From Bacillota bacterium (GTDB lineage: Bacteria > Bacillota > UBA4882 > UBA10575), in the NCBI GenBank assembly GCA_012838955.1, contig DUOH01000032.1, positions 1-64,000 on the forward strand: 64,000 bases of DNA. Direction: 5' to 3'. Below the pieces are notes generated by a model. It was not told the DNA's origin. It ran no database searches and saw only the letters and a list, made by a program, of their open reading frames with translations. A program made the position numbers and the translations under genes. This document shows positions 34,130 to 58,013 of this stretch, piece after piece. The stretch's first letter is position 1. The number at the start of each line of letters is the position of its first letter.

Positions 34130-36916
34130 TTATTTATGAAGAGGAAAATCCAAATCCTCTATTTCCTCTGCAGCTGTAGTAATGGTGATGATGTTTTCTT
34201 TGAAAACCAATTCTTCAGGAAGAGATGAAGTATCCAGCACCACACGATAGGTTCCGGGGGTCAGCAGTAAATAATAGTCTCCTTGTTGGCCGGTAACCGC
34301 AGAGTATCTTCCATCCGCCGTCATCACCTTTACTCTTCGCAAAGGTTGATCCGGTTGATCATAAAGACCGTTTTTGTTTGCGTCAATATACACCCGACCA
34401 GAGATAGAACCGACGATTTCGATACCCAGATCCACCGATTGGGTGGAGCCAGCGGTAACGGTCAGCAGCACGTCTCCGTTAACTGCCCGGTAATTAAGGG
34501 GTAAGGTGAAGATATTTATCCTGATGCGGCGAATCCCCGGGGGGATGCGGTGGAAGATAAACCTTCCCTGCGCATCCGTGGTGGCCAGCGCGATATCATC
34601 CACTGATACCTCGATTCCCGGGACGCCCTTCTCTTCTTCATCCATGACGCCATTGGCGTTTTCATCCAGGAAGACCCGGCCGGAGATGTATCCGTCGCGA
34701 ATACTTCTGCTTTTATCTCCGGGGAGGAGTCCGTGAGGGGTAAAGGCAAAACCACCATCAAGCTCAATGGAGATTTGGTATGATTCGGCGTCTCCCACCG
34801 GAGAGCCGGGTTCATAATAATAATTACCGGCTATTCTAAAATAGGTCTCCGGAAAAATTTCTTTGTAATATGACGTATGCAAGGACCATTTTTCCCAGGT
34901 AAAGGCATTCCTGGCGCGTGCACTGAAACCAACTCCCAGCCCGAGATAGGAAGAGTCTTTATTTTTATGCCAGAAGGTTAGGCTTAAGCCGTTCTCTTGG
35001 CTTTTATCCTCGTTCTCCCTTGCAGATTCGGAGAACAGGTAAATGGAATACCGGTGATCAGCTTCCAGTCCGAGTCCTACTCCCAACCAGTAGTTATCCA
35101 AATGGTAGTATTCTTCCACTCCTGGCTCCGCTTTGGAGGTGGTCTTCTCCTCTTCTTCAGTCCAGCCAAACTCCAGACGTTGGTTAGAAAGACCTCCTGA
35201 GCGCCAGCTCAGTTCGGTCCGTTTATTCACCGTCTTGAGCTCATCAACGGAGAAGCGGTTAGTTTTACCGAAGAGACCTGTGGTATGCCCGGAGAATAAG
35301 GGAAAGGTCATTCCGGTTTCCCGGGTGGACAGTGATTCTTCTGTAGTGTTCTGGTAATTTTCGTCCCGCTGAGCCCCGCGTAAATGGACCAAGTAATTCC
35401 GCTGCGGTTGCCAGTAAGCTCCCAGTTCATATTCGTTAACTCGGCCTTCTTCCGGTGGGGCGAAGACCGGACGGAAAGTCTCTGGTTGATAATAATAAGA
35501 AGCTAAAAGCGTCGTGCCGGGAAGTCCAAGGTTTAGTGAGGCGCGTCCGGCTCTCCCCAAATCAGGCCCAACGAACCAAGCCCTGGTGTCAAAGGTCAGG
35601 TTGGGTAGGAGTTGCCAATTGGAGAATTCGCTGATCTGCAGGATCTTGTCGGAGTTATCTGTTTTTTCGATGGCCGCCAGGTTGAGACCAACAGTGGCGT
35701 CGGTAAAGCCAATCAGCAGTTCGGAGACGGAGCTGAAGAGGTTTTTATAAGTATTATAAAAATTCTTTTCTTGGAATCCCAGAGAGGTTAAAAAGTGAAT
35801 GGAGCCGGGTTTCACATAGTTATCCCGGGGAAGAAGGATCCACTTTTTTTCGTCAATCAATACCTCTCCCGCTTTTATCAGCAGGCGCATTTTATGGCTC
35901 CTCCGGGGAACCAACCATAATTCGAAGATATACTCTCCGTCCTCCACGGTTTTGGTCTGATATAGGAGATCGTCCACCCAGAGCTCTACAGTGCAACCTG
36001 TCGGCGCCTGACCATGAAGTAGAGGCTTCGGCCCCATATATAACGGGCGCCAATCAGGCGTGGCATAGGCAATACCTGTGGAGTGCCAGTTATAGGGATC
36101 GAAGGCGGCATAAGGCAGCTCCACAGTGCCCAACTGCCAATAGCCCAAATCCGTTTCTTTTTTCCAAAGATACTTGTAAAGATCAAAATTATAGTCATGG
36201 GTATCAAAGTCATACTTCATTGCGCCACCGATGCTTAATTGACCACCTCGGATCGTGCCTCCGGTTTCCAAGGACAAAACCGTGGTAAAGTTGGTGTAAT
36301 CCGGAGGGGTGTAAAAGGAGTAGTCCGTATAATTCAAATAAGATAAGCGGTTAACGGGCTGAAAAGGGTCATGCTCAACGGTTGGTTCTTTAGAATCCGC
36401 TTCTTCCGGTTCAAGTAGAGCGGAGTTAGGTAATCCCCGTAACCTAATCTCCAACTGTGAAGGATCCCACAAGGCGGAAGCGCCTGTTAAGATCTGGAAA
36501 CTGTTTAAAGACATAAAGTATTCTTCGCGTACGGGAAACCAGTAGCCTTTAATAGAGACTTTAACTCCTGCCAGGTCCAGGAGGTTTTCCTTTAAGTACA
36601 GGTGGATGTTCTTCTCACGGTGGCGCGCTGTGCTGATTACCCAGCTGTCTTCCTGAGTAGACACTTCATATCCACAGTAAAGAGCGAGGCCGCGGATGGG
36701 TACATATGGTTCTTCCTTGATCAGGACTTCAAGAAGAGCTGAGCAGGAAGGGAAGAGGAAACAGACGATTGAGAAGTCATTCTCCTTTTTTAACTCCGTG
36801 AAGTTGAGGGGAACGAAGGCTCCCCCGGTTTGCCCTATAGTCGTCTGGGAAGACAGAGATAGTGAGCTGATTAACAAGAAGAGTAGTAAAGCGCTTTTTC
36901 CCTTCAATAGGCTCAC
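34130..36916 (-). CDS. Usher-like outer-membrane protein with SdrD-type C-terminus
   Basis: A 928-residue protein with a signal peptide (about 1-28). The N-terminal 165 residues carry two YVPIRGLALYCGYEVS-like beta segments, resembling archaic usher or copper-amine-oxidase-N domains. A long run of alternating beta strands with many Tyr and Trp (about 190-730) fits an outer-membrane barrel. At 301-347, HGQAPTGCTVELWVDDLLYQ and what follows resembles an usher plug (neutral loop, then xVELxVDGxL, then GxYxFE). Two SdrD_B-like modules follow (about 741-830 and 834-925), each with a calcium-type loop: FLDENANGVMDEEEKG and YIDANKNGLYDQPDQP. It starts three bases after the chaperone gene. Assignment to ushers rests on pattern and context, not on a search. 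Confidence 0.7.
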   Translation of the reverse strand: MSLLKGKSALLLFLLISSLSLSSQTTIGQTGGAFVPLNFTELKKENDFSIVCFLFPSCSALLEVLIKEEPYVPIRGLALYCGYEVSTQEDSWVISTARHREKNIHLYLKENLLDLAGVKVSIKGYWFPVREEYFMSLNSFQILTGASALWDPSQLEIRLRGLPNSALLEPEEADSKEPTVEHDPFQPVNRLSYLNYTDYSFYTPPDYTNFTTVLSLETGGTIRGGQLSIGGAMKYDFDTHDYNFDLYKYLWKKETDLGYWQLGTVELPYAAFDPYNWHSTGIAYATPDWRPLYMGPKPLLHGQAPTGCTVELWVDDLLYQTKTVEDGEYIFELWLVPRRSHKMRLLIKAGEVLIDEKKWILLPRDNYVKPGSIHFLTSLGFQEKNFYNTYKNLFSSVSELLIGFTDATVGLNLAAIEKTDNSDKILQISEFSNWQLLPNLTFDTRAWFVGPDLGRAGRASLNLGLPGTTLLASYYYQPETFRPVFAPPEEGRVNEYELGAYWQPQRNYLVHLRGAQRDENYQNTTEESLSTRETGMTFPLFSGHTTGLFGKTNRFSVDELKTVNKRTELSWRSGGLSNQRLEFGWTEEEEKTTSKAEPGVEEYYHLDNYWLGVGLGLEADHRYSIYLFSESARENEDKSQENGLSLTFWHKNKDSSYLGLGVGFSARARNAFTWEKWSLHTSYYKEIFPETYFRIAGNYYYEPGSPVGDAESYQISIELDGGFAFTPHGLLPGDKSRSIRDGYISGRVFLDENANGVMDEEEKGVPGIEVSVDDIALATTDAQGRFIFHRIPPGIRRIRINIFTLPLNYRAVNGDVLLTVTAGSTQSVDLGIEIVGSISGRVYIDANKNGLYDQPDQPLRRVKVMTADGRYSAVTGQQGDYYLLLTPGTYRVVLDTSSLPEELVFKENIITITTAAEEIEDLDFPLHK

Positions 36917-36919
36917 CCC

Positions 36920-37759
36920 TTACTCGGCTTTAACCTCAAAAGCAATGGTATTCTTCAAATCGGTGTGGCCCGGTTCCAAGCCATATTCCGCCAGATCCCC
37001 CGCATATAACGGTGGGACAAAGGAGAACTCACTCTCCACATGGTAGATACCGGGAGGAAGTTCCAGAGGCAGATGGCCGGTGAAAAAACGGGATCTGCCC
37101 GGAAAGACCACATTTCCTTTGTAGGCGCCTTCACCTAAGACCGTTTTGTTCTCGTCAAACACTTTAAACCTTCCAGTGCAGCGTAGATGGGCGTTGCCGC
37201 TGGAGTTGATTTTACATCTAAGTTGTAAGCCATTATCCTTGTGATAATCTATGAAGACTTCTTCCAAGGAACCGCGTCTCGTTACGGGTGGGGTGTATCC
37301 ATAGATGGTGACCAGAATATTACTGACGATTGTCAGGGTAGTCTCCTCCACCGGTTCGCTAGCAAAGAGAATGGCGCACCGGTGTTCTCCGGCAGGCGCC
37401 TGAGCAGGGGCTGTAAGGCTAAATCTTACTACTTGCCGGTCTCCGGGCGCCAATTGGAAAAGGCGGGGATTAAACCGTAACCAGGTGGCGCAAGAGTTGG
37501 ATGCTTCCCCAGGTATGGTAAATAGAGGATTTCCTTCTTCATCCATTTCCCAGTCCCGGACATCTACCCCGATGCGTAATGTGTCTGTGCCGTTATTAAG
37601 TATAGTAATGGCCTGAGTTTCTGCTTTGCCCGGAGTGAGTAATAGCTCAAAACGGGACGGTTGGATAATCAATTGGGTGGCGCTTTGGCCGCTGGCGGAG
37701 AGTAATAATAAAAGAAGCAAGATGCCCAGGGAAGAAAGGATTTTTCTTTTATGCCTCAT
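36920..37759 (-). CDS. Exported PapD-like pilus chaperone
   Basis: A 279-residue protein with a signal peptide (about 1-27, cleaved after SGQSA). The first domain shows the periplasmic chaperone pattern: IIQPSRFELLLTPGKAETQA, ITILNNGTDTLRIGVDV, then the LFQLAPGDRQVVRFSL motif at 100-115, the counterpart of the PapD segment that stabilises subunits. A second beta domain (about 155-275) follows. In ushers and related systems such proteins hold subunits and hand them to the barrel. GGAGGTAAGG precedes the ATG. The nearest alternative is a DUF916-like extracytoplasmic beta protein. Confidence 0.72.
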   Translation of the reverse strand: MRHKRKILSSLGILLLLLLLSASGQSATQLIIQPSRFELLLTPGKAETQAITILNNGTDTLRIGVDVRDWEMDEEGNPLFTIPGEASNSCATWLRFNPRLFQLAPGDRQVVRFSLTAPAQAPAGEHRCAILFASEPVEETTLTIVSNILVTIYGYTPPVTRRGSLEEVFIDYHKDNGLQLRCKINSSGNAHLRCTGRFKVFDENKTVLGEGAYKGNVVFPGRSRFFTGHLPLELPPGIYHVESEFSFVPPLYAGDLAEYGLEPGHTDLKNTIAFEVKAE

Positions 37760-37871
37760 GTCCTTACCTCCAGAGTGGTTTCTCCGGTTACAATAGGCTT
37801 ACATGGATTGCCGATCCGTTACGACTCTTCCGGGTCAATACCTGGATATTTTTGTCAGAAAGGATCCAAGG

Positions 37872-37896
37872 AAAAAAGGCGGACCGAAGTCCGCCT
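37872..37896 (-). terminator. Internal rho-independent terminator in the usher locus
   Basis: On the minus strand AGGCGGAC, TTCG tetraloop, GTCCGCCT, then TTTTTT. It follows the 194-residue secreted protein gene by a few bases and precedes the chaperone gene, so most transcripts should end here and only a fraction read on. Confidence 0.9.
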
Positions 37897-37903
37897 CTTC
37901 GGG

Positions 37904-38488
37904 TTATTCCTGATACGCAGTGAAGTATACGGCAAAGCTGTACTTTCCAGGGGTGGTCCTGCTGTCTACCACACCGCGGAACTGATAACTTCCCAATTCT
38001 TGACCGTCGTTACCGGTTGGTCCGGCAGCGTCCCAAATCGGAGTCATACTCCAGACATTTAAGGGTTGCCAATTGTCGCTGTCGGTTTTCCGGTATTCAA
38101 AACCCAACCTATTTTCCTGATCGATCTGGTTTTCAAATCTGCTTTGCCTAGCGGCCCGCACGATATAATCGGTGCGACCGATCCGGGCGGCCCAGGGAGC
38201 ATTGGAGTATACCCAGACCTCGTACGCGCGGCTCTCCACGTAGGTTGCCTCTTGTCCGGGAACAGGAGTGACCTCTTTTCTAAAGGAGTGGGTTAAGACC
38301 CCACCCGGGAGCCAATCATTGGAGAAGTCCTTAACCCCGTTAACACTTAGGATGAGTAGAGGCTTGACGGTTAGTTCGGCCGGAATGAGGACAGTAGCAT
38401 CGACTTTGTGACTTTGGGCAAAAGCCGGTGCCGCTGTCAGGCAAATTAAGAGGAGAACAATGGGTAGAACGCGAATGGCCTTCATCAA
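37904..38488 (-). CDS. Secreted structural protein, candidate pilus subunit
   Basis: A 194-residue protein with a clear signal peptide (MMKAIRVLPIVLLLICLTAA, cleaved after PAFA near 24). The mature part looks all-beta. SNAPWAARIGRT at 95-106 matches the ANAPWVLQVEVT segment of the adjacent 283-residue protein, and it ends TPGKYSFAVYFTAYQE, a strand pattern typical of fimbrial or Ig-like subunits. There are no Cys residues in the mature chain. Its start overlaps the upstream stop (ATGA), and a terminator follows. No pilin family is recognised with confidence. Confidence 0.6.
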   Translation of the reverse strand: MMKAIRVLPIVLLLICLTAAPAFAQSHKVDATVLIPAELTVKPLLILSVNGVKDFSNDWLPGGVLTHSFRKEVTPVPGQEATYVESRAYEVWVYSNAPWAARIGRTDYIVRAARQSRFENQIDQENRLGFEYRKTDSDNWQPLNVWSMTPIWDAAGPTGNDGQELGSYQFRGVVDSRTTPGKYSFAVYFTAYQE

Positions 38489-39336
38489 TATTCACCTCCT
38501 TTCTGTAAAAGCTCTCCCCGTACGGGAAGAACGGAAAAACGTAGATAAAAAGGATAATCACCAGCCCGGAGAGGGGCGGAAGGGGCTTTCTGCCAATCCA
38601 GGACCAGCCTGTGGTCTCCTCCTGCTTCACCTTGCGCCAAACCGATTATTTGGTTGGGTAAAACCAAAACTGGAGCAGAGGATAGAAATTGGGTTGCCAC
38701 CGAGTGGTACAGGCAGTTACAGACCAAAGCCAGGCTCTCGTGGGACTTTGTTACTTCCACTTGTAACACCCAGGGCGCATTGGCGTGGATTTCCAACGAG
38801 AGCTGCCTGTCCAAATGGTTATCATCTGTAATACGTAGACGGCGGAAGGATTGAGGCGTGATCACGGCCAAAAAAGGGACTCTTAGTTTGAGCAGTTTCC
38901 TCTGGGTGATGCTCTCCTCACCGGCGATCTCTAACATAATGTTTATGGGAGCTTCATAGAGACCAGGGGGGGTCATCCAGTCAAACTTCCAGACAATAGG
39001 GATCCTCTGCAAGCGTGCGCCTTTTCCTGAAACCTCTTGTCCCAAAGGTGAGGTGATCCGGTAATCTTCGGATAAAAATTCCCATCGTAGTCTCCAACGG
39101 GCGTCGGTCACCACTTCAACATAGAGTTCTCCTCTGGCTGTGATCAGGGGACCCGCTATGCCGGAGGGCAGAGGAGCTATGCGAAAATGATCCGAAGAGA
39201 TCTTCAGGAGGGTCTCGCGGGGAGCGGCCAGAGAATAGCCGCCCATGAAAAGCAGGGTGACCAAAGTCGATGCAAGCAGGTGATACCGTATACGCGTACG
39301 TGTGCGTGCCTTGCCTTTCCGTCCTTTTGTTTTCAA
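38485..39336 (-). CDS. Secreted protein with two beta-sandwich-like modules, candidate subunit
   Basis: A 283-residue protein with a very basic N-terminus (KGRKGKARTRTRIRYH) and a signal segment cleaved near 38 (YSLAA). The mature part has two similar halves: one with LYVEVVTDARWRLRWEFL (71-88) and PPGLYEAPINIMLEI, the other with LSLEIHANAPWVLQVEV (179-195) and RAGDYPFYLRFSV. The second half resembles the 194-residue neighbour. The 4-base overlap with that gene indicates coupled translation. I infer a minor or adaptor subunit. Confidence 0.55.
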   Translation of the reverse strand: MKTKGRKGKARTRTRIRYHLLASTLVTLLFMGGYSLAAPRETLLKISSDHFRIAPLPSGIAGPLITARGELYVEVVTDARWRLRWEFLSEDYRITSPLGQEVSGKGARLQRIPIVWKFDWMTPPGLYEAPINIMLEIAGEESITQRKLLKLRVPFLAVITPQSFRRLRITDDNHLDRQLSLEIHANAPWVLQVEVTKSHESLALVCNCLYHSVATQFLSSAPVLVLPNQIIGLAQGEAGGDHRLVLDWQKAPSAPLRAGDYPFYLRFSVLPVRGELLQKGGEY

Positions 39337-39391: not shown

Positions 39392-39422
39392 TGACAAAAA
39401 AATAACAGGGTAAAACCCTGTT
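39392..39422 (-). terminator. Terminator of nrdJ, with possible downstream -35
   Basis: AACAGGG, TTTTA, CCCTGTT, then ATTTTTTT on the minus strand (39422 to 39395). TTGTCA (39397-39392) just beyond could be the -35 of the usher-locus promoter, but I see no convincing -10. Confidence 0.88.
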
Positions 39423-39455
39423 AGAAAGAGAAGGATGGTTAGCTTTATATGGTAT

Positions 39456-55113: not shown

Positions 55114-55195
55114 ATCCTAATTAATTCCGGGAGGATTGACTGCCGAGATATGGAATTATTATAAGGATTTTGAAATTCTTTACTGGGGTGATAAG

Positions 55196-56881
55196 ATGAC
55201 ACGCAGAGGAAGACAAGGTTTTTTCCTTGTTATTATTATATGCTTATTACTGGTTTTTATCCCGAATGCAGAGGTTACATGGTCGGCCCTGGAAATAACC
55301 GATACCGGGGCGGAAAGTCGCTTCGGGAAGGTAAAGGCCCCGCCTCGTCCTTTGCGGTGGAAGGTTCTGAAAACCCCTCATTTTGAGATCTATTTTTATC
55401 AGGGGATGGAAGAGTTGGTGATGCGTTGCCGGGATATTTTGGAAAACGAGGCCTATGAGCGTATATACCCGGATTTTGAAAGCTTTTACGCTCTTCACCC
55501 CTATAAAAAGATCAAGGTTATCATTTTTACCTCAAGAAAGGAATATCAGAATTCCCGCGCGAACGGACTCCCACTTTCCACCACCTCCGAGGGGGTGGCC
55601 AACATCCTGAACAACCGGATTGTGGCCATTCGCCAACCAACCCTCCAGGATTTGAGGTGTGTATTAACACATGAAGTGACACACTTGATTACTCTAGGTA
55701 ACAGATCGGCGCTATCCTCTTCTTTAGGGGGGCAAGTACCGGGCTGGATGGCCGAGGGATTGGCGGAGTTCTACGAACCGGAAGACACCAGGTTTTTCAT
55801 GCGTGAGGTCGCCTTGAGAGACGCGGTGCTCCGCGAGGGGTTGCATACTTTATCCCGTCTGGAACAGATCGGGGGTAATCTGGACTATGCAGAGGCGTGG
55901 TCGTTAGTGGATTATATCGCCCGGGTCCATGGTAAGGATAAGCTACCCGAGTTGTTGATGGAAATGTTTAAACGGGGAGATAGGGATACAACCTATGAAC
56001 GGACCCTGAGCCTCAATAAACAGGAGCTGTGGGAGAATTGGAAGACTGATCTGGAGAAACACTATGTGGAAGGAAAGGATAATCCCAGTATAAAACAGGA
56101 ACACCTTCCCTTGATTGAGGGTTACGGTCACCAACAGGATCCGAAGATCGATCGGAACGGCCGGGTATTTTTCCTCTCCACGCATCAGAGTAAATTTTTT
56201 GACCTTTATATGTGGACGATGGATGGATGTCGCCGGTTGACCGAGCAAACCGTAATCGCCTACGACATAGCCCCGGACGGTCAAGAAGCAATCTTCATCT
56301 CCGACTCTGACGGGGAACGTAACTTATATAAGCTGGAGATCGAGACCGGAAAAATTACCCCGTTTCCGATGGATTTGTCAAACCCGGTTGATCTGGCCTG
56401 GTCTCCTAGAGGAGATAAATTGGCCGTAACTGTGAACACCAGAGGCGATACGGATATATTCATCATCGATCTTCAGGGGAGGGTCTTGATGAAGGTGGCT
56501 GCCGGATCTATGGATGAACGCGCGGCGGCTTGGGCGCCTGATGGAGAGAGACTCGTCTATATGCTGACCAGATTAGGCCGTAACCAACTGATGATCTGGG
56601 AGGGAGAAACAAGCCGACCTTTGACCATCCCGGATCGTGACTACCTGGAGCCGTTTTGGGGGACGGATGATTTTATCTGGTGTATTACCGGAGAAAACGG
56701 TTATTATCAGGTGGTGACTATTGATCCGGAAAACGGTGAGGTTCAGCAGGTTTCCGGCTTTCAGGAAACACTCCTGCATGCCGTTCCGGCGCCGGATGGG
56801 AGGATTTTGTCTGACGTCTACGCCGAACAAGAGACCAAGATATATTCCTGGACGCCGCAGGAGGTGAAGTCCGATGAATAG
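55196..56881 (+). CDS. Peptidase MA-like protease with beta-propeller
   Basis: A 561-residue exported protein. An N-terminal signal or anchor (about 8-30) is followed by a gluzincin domain (about 50-270): THEVTHLI holds the HExxH zinc motif near 159-163 and WMAEGLAEFYE the third-ligand Glu region. From about 310 a TolB/WD40-like propeller has repeated blades such as DIAPDGQEAIFISDSDGERN, DLAWSPRGDKLAV and AAAWAPDGERLVYML. I use ATG 55196 after GGGGTG rather than the TTG at 55136. It overlaps the BamA-like gene by 8 bases, so the two are coupled. Confidence 0.85.
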   Translation: MTRRGRQGFFLVIIICLLLVFIPNAEVTWSALEITDTGAESRFGKVKAPPRPLRWKVLKTPHFEIYFYQGMEELVMRCRDILENEAYERIYPDFESFYALHPYKKIKVIIFTSRKEYQNSRANGLPLSTTSEGVANILNNRIVAIRQPTLQDLRCVLTHEVTHLITLGNRSALSSSLGGQVPGWMAEGLAEFYEPEDTRFFMREVALRDAVLREGLHTLSRLEQIGGNLDYAEAWSLVDYIARVHGKDKLPELLMEMFKRGDRDTTYERTLSLNKQELWENWKTDLEKHYVEGKDNPSIKQEHLPLIEGYGHQQDPKIDRNGRVFFLSTHQSKFFDLYMWTMDGCRRLTEQTVIAYDIAPDGQEAIFISDSDGERNLYKLEIETGKITPFPMDLSNPVDLAWSPRGDKLAVTVNTRGDTDIFIIDLQGRVLMKVAAGSMDERAAAWAPDGERLVYMLTRLGRNQLMIWEGETSRPLTIPDRDYLEPFWGTDDFIWCITGENGYYQVVTIDPENGEVQQVSGFQETLLHAVPAPDGRILSDVYAEQETKIYSWTPQEVKSDE

Positions 56882-58013
56882 ACGCGTGTCCATAAAACTT
56901 TGGAAAAAAATATTTCTTCTTCTGCCTATATTTCTGCTCGTCCCTGCAGAGATCAGAGCGGAGGATGATGCGCTCTGGGAGAGTTATCGCCCGAAACTGG
57001 AGATGGAAATAATCTACCCTGTTCTATACTATGATGAGCAGTACGGGTTCTTTGGCTTACTTTATGGACAGATGAGCGATGTCTTACGCGAACATGATCT
57101 ACGATTTGTTTTTTATATCAATGAACGGGATGACGAATCACAGTATGTAGTAGGATATACTAGGCACCTCAGCCAGTGGTCTTTAGGGGCCAACCTCTAC
57201 TCGGGGCCTGTTTATCTAGGTTCCATTTGGTCTCCGGGCTTTTCTGAATACCAAAATGGTCTGAGTCTGCTTGCCAGCTATCATTGGAATAATGAATCAA
57301 GAATAGATTTTCGTCTGCAATGGGAGGAGTTTGAAACGAAGGCCTACTCTTCGGTGCTGAAGGATTTACCGGAAGACGGGAAGGCTGTCGGGTGGGATAT
57401 TACCTTGAATCAGGACACCCATGACTTGTTCGCGCAGGATGGAACCAGACAATATCTGAGTGTAGGTGGGGCATTCCCCATCCTCGGCACAGACTATGAT
57501 TACCTAAAAATTGAAGGGGACCACCGCAGTTACCATCCGCTAGGGAAGAGGGTATCCCTAATTTGGAGCGCGCGGGCAGGTAAGATTTGGGGAGATTATC
57601 CTTCACACCGGGGGTTTTTGGTGGGAGGGATTCAGAACACCAGTACTAGCGCGCTTGGAACTCTGGTTAATACAGGCCTTTTCGGAATTCTTTCTGATTC
57701 CGTGTTGCGGGGATACGACACCGACGCCTTTACGGGTGACGCCTTTGTCATCTCCAATTTTGAATTAAGGGGGTTGCTCTGGCCTGGTGACTACTATAAC
57801 ATTGGCGGTTTTGCCTGTATCAGTTCTTTATTTATTGATGCGGGCCAAATTTGGCGTCAGCAAAAGCAGTTAACTTCCAAACCACCGGCTGCCTATGGCG
57901 TAGGGCTAAAGTTTTTGATTCTGCGTGGATTGATGCTGGGCGTTGATTATGCGGTGCCTTTTGATCCGGAAGAGGATGCAAAATGGCATTTTAGTTTGGG
58001 TGAAGTCTTTTGA
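56874..58013 (+). CDS. BamA/TamA-like (D15) outer-membrane barrel
   Basis: A 379-residue protein with a signal peptide (about 1-28, ending in EIRA). The chain is strand-rich and its C-terminal 110 residues match the bacterial surface antigen (D15) domain: SVLRGYDTDAF contains the conserved RG-Y/F loop motif near 279-283, followed by ISNFELRGLLWPGDYYNIGG, SLFIDAGQIWRQ, AYGVGLKFLILRGLMLGVDY and a final strand WHFSLGEVF ending in Phe. No POTRA domain is seen in front, unlike true BamA. The partner protease may fill part of that role. Confidence 0.88.
   Translation: MNRRVSIKLWKKIFLLLPIFLLVPAEIRAEDDALWESYRPKLEMEIIYPVLYYDEQYGFFGLLYGQMSDVLREHDLRFVFYINERDDESQYVVGYTRHLSQWSLGANLYSGPVYLGSIWSPGFSEYQNGLSLLASYHWNNESRIDFRLQWEEFETKAYSSVLKDLPEDGKAVGWDITLNQDTHDLFAQDGTRQYLSVGGAFPILGTDYDYLKIEGDHRSYHPLGKRVSLIWSARAGKIWGDYPSHRGFLVGGIQNTSTSALGTLVNTGLFGILSDSVLRGYDTDAFTGDAFVISNFELRGLLWPGDYYNIGGFACISSLFIDAGQIWRQQKQLTSKPPAAYGVGLKFLILRGLMLGVDYAVPFDPEEDAKWHFSLGEVF

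Follow-up and report, generated by a model that had tools for sequence, protein, structure and literature searches.

A putative divergent chaperone-usher locus in a likely spore-forming diderm member of the Bacillota

Gene content of the locus

Chaperone-usher machinery builds adhesive hairs in Gram-negative bacteria. The present analysis concerns a four-gene locus that very probably encodes a divergent machinery of this kind, found at positions 34130-39336 on the minus strand of a 64,000-nt stretch of Bacillota DNA (contig DUOH01000032.1 of assembly GCA_012838955.1, positions 1 to 64,000; the whole stretch is called the window). A first-pass annotation had described four same-strand genes here, and the open reading frames (ORFs) are as it stated, with a hydrophobic N-terminal signal in each of the products P0001-P0004. 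All four are co-directional and in the order of transcription encode tip-like, pilin-like, chaperone and usher proteins, an arrangement referred to below as System I. Lengths are in amino acids (aa).
38485-39336, minus strand: P0004, two-domain tip-like subunit, 283 aa (ORF list, profile match to the pilin profile)
37904-38488, minus strand: P0003, pilin-like subunit, 194 aa (ORF list, profile match to syntenic pilins of relatives)
36920-37759, minus strand: P0002, periplasmic chaperone, 279 aa, containing LFQLAPGDRQVVRF (AlphaFold2 (AF2) model, Foldseek, profile match, hallmark residues)
34130-36916, minus strand: P0001, usher, 928 aa (profile matches, AF2, Foldseek)

Detection by profile-profile comparison

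Neither an usher nor a chaperone was revealed by Pfam, NCBIfam, phmmer against the PDB or hmmsearch with profiles, and the significant profile matches in the PDB were to SdrD-like and other repeat domains, not to ushers. Pfam recognised SdrD_B in the C-terminus of P0001 (E 5.9e-16) and, below threshold, Cu_amine_oxidN1 near its N-terminus (E 0.0012). In P0002 it gave PapD_N (E 0.068) and PF06030 (DUF916; E 0.14), both below the cut-off, and in P0003 and P0004 there was no match, including none to SCPU-type pilins. A viral-contig scan found nothing.

The sensitive route was profile-profile comparison with E. coli K-12 families (7 ushers, 9 chaperones and 11 subunits) together with structure prediction by AF2 and Foldseek. 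The P0001- and P0002-family profiles match known chaperone-usher families whereas reversed and shuffled controls do not. Signal peptides inflate the profile scores. Once they were removed, a match between the pilins and WxLIP, a surface protein of monoderm Firmicutes, fell from 1.2e-6 to 0.13 and a match between the pilins and the WxL proteins fell from 3.1e-8 to 6.3e-4. The reduced values are therefore the ones relied upon, and chance matches remain weaker than the real ones even with signal peptides removed.

The usher

The usher profile, from 15 relatives, matched the K-12 ushers at E 4.1e-7 over 272 columns, the best of 40 block shuffles reaching 0.03. The first six barrel strands and the plug alone, taken without the signal peptide, matched FimD-type ushers at E 1.2e-6 over 216 columns (0.13 when reversed). 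Identity to the K-12 proteins in the usher and chaperone profile alignments was ∼13-15%. For the N-terminal, chaperone-binding domain the match to the K-12 profile was limited to the last 32 columns (E 6e-4), and the C-terminal domains of the P0001 family matched the C-terminus of the K-12 ushers at E 5.7e-5 over 120 columns with a probability of 66%. P0001 divides as follows.
36437-36724, minus strand: residues 65-160, Cu_amine_oxidN1-like domain in the position of an usher N-terminal domain (sub-threshold Pfam match, profile)
36059-36343, minus strand: residues 192-286, barrel strands 1-6 (AF2; profile match together with the plug)
35834-36022, minus strand: residues 299-361, plug (AF2, profile matches)
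34739-35800, minus strand: residues 373-726, remaining barrel strands, ∼18-20 as modelled (AF2, low confidence)
34133-34693, minus strand: residues 742-928, two SdrD_B-like C-terminal domains in the position of usher C-terminal domains 1 and 2 (Pfam)

The plug-like segment placed at residues 301-347 by the first-pass annotation is thus modelled as strands 299-361, following six barrel strands. Structure prediction of the 928-residue protein had been proposed as a check, and it returned a large barrel with a plug, at low model confidence, for which ranks 1-17 of a Foldseek search of the PDB were all FimD or PapC, with values from 1.7e-23 (911 columns) to 9.3e-10. The next match, not an usher, was at 2.5e-8 and other barrels were at best 6.2e-5. 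In this model P0001 is an outer-membrane usher whose large barrel has its plug behind the sixth strand.

The chaperone

The chaperone profile matched the K-12 chaperones at E 1.4e-7, or 4.6e-5 without signal peptides, with the best chance pair at 0.0028. The AF2 model of P0002 contains two immunoglobulin (Ig) domains, with a predicted local distance difference test (pLDDT) score of 85.6, and has no C-terminal or transmembrane helix. Foldseek placed WxLIP at rank 1 (6.6e-11) and also found CsuC (1.1e-10), CfaA, Caf1M and FimC. The earlier description of this 279-residue protein as PapD-like agrees with its fold matches to CsuC, CfaA and FimC. The nearest relatives also include WxLIP, which had been missed.

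Hallmark residues were located by alignment with EcpB, in which the published Pro60, Arg89, Arg148 and Tyr169 were reproduced exactly. P98 of P0002 aligns with Pro60, the super-conserved proline of strand D1, and is present in 18/18 chaperones. R127 aligns with Arg89 of EcpB (Arg89 also in CsuC) and is R or K in 17/18, while R193, again in 17/18, aligns with EcpB Arg148, one half of the second anchor (Tyr196/Arg174; EcpB Tyr169/Arg148), of which the tyrosine half is not conserved. At the positions of the classical basic pair (FimC Arg8/Lys112), R36 is mostly R or K and no basic residue is found at the G1 lysine position. The proline is invariant across the whole chaperone superfamily. In non-classical chaperones the most characteristic feature is the arginine, which anchors the subunit by its C-terminal carboxylate (PMC4654587). 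P0002 is a two-Ig periplasmic chaperone with both the invariant proline and the non-classical arginine.

The subunits

Every one of the 22 System I pilins has Gly at position -14 and an aromatic residue at -12, as against 14/209 and 2/209, respectively, in 209 other proteins encoded at these loci, taken as background. Gly at -14 is also present in 10/11 K-12 subunits. Such a fixed C-terminal distance would be required by a chaperone holding the carboxylate of the subunit. With signal peptides left out, the P0003-type pilin profile matched the syntenic pilins of relatives over 147 columns (E 9.8e-12). Two segments of P0003 are of interest.
38363-38407, minus strand: residues 28-42, KVDATVLIPAELTVK, candidate N-terminal donor strand (alternating hydrophobic pattern 0.91; putative function)
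37907-37948, minus strand: the C-terminal 14 residues, GKYSFAVYFTAYQE, with Gly exactly at -14 as in all System I pilins

Besides its signal peptide, P0004 has two pilin-like domains. In each there is a W-x-L-type strand (residues 77 and 186) and a G-x-Y final strand (residues 125 and 259). The P0004 family profile matched the pilin profile at E 2.6e-5 over 127 columns with signal peptides removed. The motif occurring twice and the match to the pilin profile are what a tip adhesin carrying a pilin domain would show, and by analogy P0004 may occupy the tip.

Gene starts and expression signals

The Shine-Dalgarno sequence AAAGGAGG precedes an ATG at 38485, thus the P0003 start is probably one codon later than listed. 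The P0002 and P0001 genes are nearly contiguous, being 3 bases apart. Promoter-like matches around the operon were no more frequent than expected by chance. Two terminator-like features were found.
37873-37900, minus strand: intrinsic-terminator-like hairpin between the P0003 and P0002 genes, -22.3 kcal/mol, z -3.4
39403-39423: terminator-like site upstream of the operon, separating it from a gene that from its sequence appears to be ribonucleotide reductase-like

A strong hairpin is found at the same place, between pilin and chaperone, in an Orenia locus (L062) and is absent from most relatives. The hairpin could keep the expression of chaperone and usher lower than that of the pilin.

Relatives and gene-order variants

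Relatives of P0002 were present in 29 of 61 related genomes, where two systems, I and II, are built around a P0002-type chaperone. The survey proposed in the first-pass annotation found the locus in Halanaerobium, Orenia, Halobacteroidaceae and Hydrogenispora-type genomes. A scan of named-species genomes with gene calling located System I in Orenia metallireducens, Halanaerobium kushneri and Halanaerobium saccharolyticum, and it also occurs in several Halobacteroidaceae bins, one Hydrogenispora bin and other Bacillota bins. The distant chaperones and ushers have ∼17-36% identity to the window proteins, and since the gene order recurs in such distant genomes the observation is more than chance. 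When 399 genomes sampled from the phylum were surveyed with the usher profile (cut-off E 1e-5), 161 gave a match, mostly via the Cu_amine_oxidN1 and SdrD_B domains, and only ∼15 were of usher scale. In one small class all 5/5 genomes had at least two chaperone matches.

In System II several ∼165-aa pilins surround the chaperone, and a barrel-like gene in convergent orientation encodes Ig-like N-terminal repeats and two SdrD_B domains (L037-L047, L050, L051 and L055-L058, e.g. L057:7003-12703). Its chaperone has W instead of R127 in 17/17 cases, and its barrel did not match the K-12 ushers by profile. System II was not found in the genome of the window at the sensitivity used.

Several other arrangements were noted. 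In the first, present in Halanaerobium kushneri and other genomes (L063:660-4723, L048:5447-10204 and L059:4562-9439), pilin-like genes are followed by a ∼500-570-aa chaperone/WxLIP-like protein, with WxLIP_HBD at E 4.4e-5 in L063, and then by a 390-530-aa exported protein. In L021/L061 (UBA4882) the tip, pilin and chaperone genes are duplicated on either side of a single usher gene. Halobacteroidaceae T1Sed10_148 has two tandem ushers in L080 and, in L081, an apparently broken usher with a 401-aa transposase-like ORF between the chaperone and the usher remnants.

Cell context

The genome of the window encodes LpxC and Spo0A and gives four Omp85-type matches, including one at window 56874-58013. 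The combination of LpxC, Omp85 and Spo0A makes a spore-forming diderm host likely, as had been supposed. Window 55136-58013 holds, near a SpoIID gene, a Peptidase_MA_2/PD40 protein followed directly by a short Omp85-superfamily protein of 379 aa. Diderm envelopes are found in Halanaerobiales and Limnochordia, and a diderm ancestor of the Firmicutes has been argued for (PMC5007114, PMC11456536). Ushers are mentioned neither in PMC5007114, a wide-ranging study of the envelopes of diderm Firmicutes, nor in PMC11456536, and archaic chaperone-usher systems are listed only in Proteobacteria, Cyanobacteria and Deinococcus-Thermus (PMC4654587). None of the open-licence papers searched describes chaperone-usher assembly in a spore-forming diderm member of the Bacillota; a description elsewhere is possible.

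Interpretation

The locus very probably represents a new, divergent and non-classical branch of chaperone-usher systems, for surface fibre assembly on a diderm spore-forming Firmicute. The divergent chaperone-usher system suggested by the first-pass annotation is upheld by the usher and chaperone profile matches to K-12 families, the fold matches and the hallmark residues, and there is good support for the usher, the chaperone and the pilin C-terminus. Donor-strand exchange, fibre formation and adhesion as the purpose would follow by analogy.

A number of observations weigh against this assignment. Pfam and NCBIfam assign none of the four proteins as usher, chaperone or pilin, and the Pfam Usher model PF00577 has no match in P0001 or in 29 genomes of the class, although a PF00577 match is a matter of a detection model and not a mechanistic feature. 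The second half of the barrel, residues 373-726, has no sequence match to the K-12 usher profile. The P0001 model is weak, with a mean pLDDT of 59 and a predicted template modelling (TM) score of 0.42, and its TM-scores to known structures are low, 0.26-0.48 (∼0.33-0.48 to FimD), as expected of such a model, so that the 24-26 strands counted are a provisional figure. The equivalent of the anchor tyrosine (Tyr196; EcpB Tyr169) is not conserved among the 18 chaperones, K-12 pilins and System I pilins do not match in profile-profile comparison, and mature P0003 has none of the cysteines of archaic pilins. Finally, the chaperone profile is closer to WxLIP than to the K-12 chaperones.

The last point could mean that the system is an outer-membrane relative of WxL/WxLIP which assembles no pilus. 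P0002 would then keep P0003 and P0004 stable at the peptidoglycan or the cell surface, in the way that WxLIP stabilises WxL, and P0001 would be an outer-membrane anchor or porin. With signal peptides removed, WxLIP from two genomes and the System I chaperone profile matched over 230 columns (E 2e-12; 0.13 reversed). WxLIP also leads the fold matches of P0002, and the usual content of WxL clusters, one WxLIP with a small and a large WxL protein (PMC10599100), resembles one chaperone with a small and a two-domain subunit. However, P0002 lacks a transmembrane helix, and P98, R112, R127, Y153, H191 and R193 are conserved in System I chaperones but not in WxLIP, which shares N55, P220, G237 and Y239 with them. 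The pilin C-termini are fixed at -14, unlike those of the WxL proteins examined, where the C-terminus is not fixed, and the partner barrel matches ushers, plug included. This explanation is therefore considered unlikely.

Homology of the chaperone to WxLIP is nevertheless well supported at the sequence level. WxLIP has no direct match to the K-12 chaperones (0.12), thus the System I chaperones bridge the two. A study of WxLIP that makes no mention of chaperones or ushers describes two Ig domains perpendicular to each other and predicts that a WxLIP strand inserts into WxL (PMC10599100). System II pilins matched WxL weakly (E 6.3e-4, signal peptides removed). A common origin of the whole chaperone-pilin and WxLIP/WxL pairs is put forward as a hypothesis. 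In a tentative scenario, held at somewhat less than even confidence, WxL/WxLIP and chaperone-usher pili would derive from one ancestral chaperone-pilin pair and the diderm Firmicute system would be a surviving intermediate; loss of the outer membrane would have removed the usher, turning the chaperone into membrane-anchored WxLIP and the pilin into WxL. Separately, Thermotoga maritima scored above the cut-off for WxLIP_PGBD (PF06030), which is unexpected in an outer-sheath bacterium and possibly reflects a related chaperone-like protein.

Alternatively, P0001 may be some other outer-membrane protein (a porin, exporter or adhesin) with SdrD-like domains, its neighbours being unrelated Ig-like exported proteins. 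That Pfam recognises only SdrD_B and Cu_amine_oxidN1 in P0001, and that its model is of low confidence, would fit this. Given that the four-gene order is kept over distant lineages, that the usher-specific profile match runs through the plug and that other barrels fall so far behind FimD in the fold search (6.2e-5 against 1.7e-23), it is very improbable. Recent acquisition from Proteobacteria, where most known chaperone-usher pathways occur (PMC4654587), is rejected as extremely improbable on divergence and distribution, namely the ∼13-15% identity to K-12 proteins, the missing Pfam match and the occurrence in Firmicute lineages only in the samples surveyed.

If the locus is a chaperone-usher system then all four proteins would be exported by Sec, with P0003 as the main fibre subunit and P0004 as the two-domain tip. 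P0002 would complete the unfinished fold of each subunit with its own G1 strand and hold the fixed C-terminus of the subunit via R127 and nearby residues. The periplasmic domains of P0001 would receive the chaperone-subunit complexes. The N-terminal strand of the next subunit would then replace the chaperone strand, and the fibre would leave tip first through the gated barrel.

Chaperone-usher assembly would thereby be extended to spore-forming diderm Bacillota, and Halanaerobium saccharolyticum, H. kushneri and Orenia metallireducens are cultured hosts carrying the system. The kinship of the chaperone with a Gram-positive surface protein hints at a possible origin of that Gram-positive system. 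If true, the view of WxL/WxLIP as a chaperone-pilin pair minus its usher would be a concrete proposal for the fate of a surface appendage when the Firmicute outer membrane was lost.

Comparison with known systems

With WxLIP (DUF916-DUF3324)/WxL of monoderm Firmicutes the system has in common a homologous chaperone and a similar make-up of partners. WxLIP differs in being membrane-anchored, in having no usher and in lacking equivalents of P98 and R127, and the pilin-to-WxL homology is no more than suggestive at E 6.3e-4. With the classical FimC-FimD (type 1 pili) and PapD-PapC it shares the order of the barrel (six strands, plug, remainder), the chaperone fold and the subunit Gly at -14, but the anchoring lysine of the G1 strand has no counterpart and the pilins are unrelated by sequence at the sensitivity used.

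The archaic (sigma) and alternative (alpha) pathways, CsuC-CsuD of Acinetobacter and EcpB-EcpC of E. coli, share with it a chaperone of two Ig domains that has the invariant proline and the arginine for carboxylate anchoring, a plugged barrel usher, subunits with a fixed C-terminal strand and a single operon for the four roles. They differ in that the present system has no similarity at the Pfam level, no archaic pilin cysteines and no conserved anchor tyrosine, has a Cu_amine_oxidN1-like N-terminal domain and SdrD_B-like C-terminal domains in its usher, and is found in Bacillota, outside the hosts listed for archaic systems (PMC4654587). As the archaic pilin features were looked for and were absent, the system is not filed in the archaic family, though by analogy it would work like an archaic chaperone-usher pilus.

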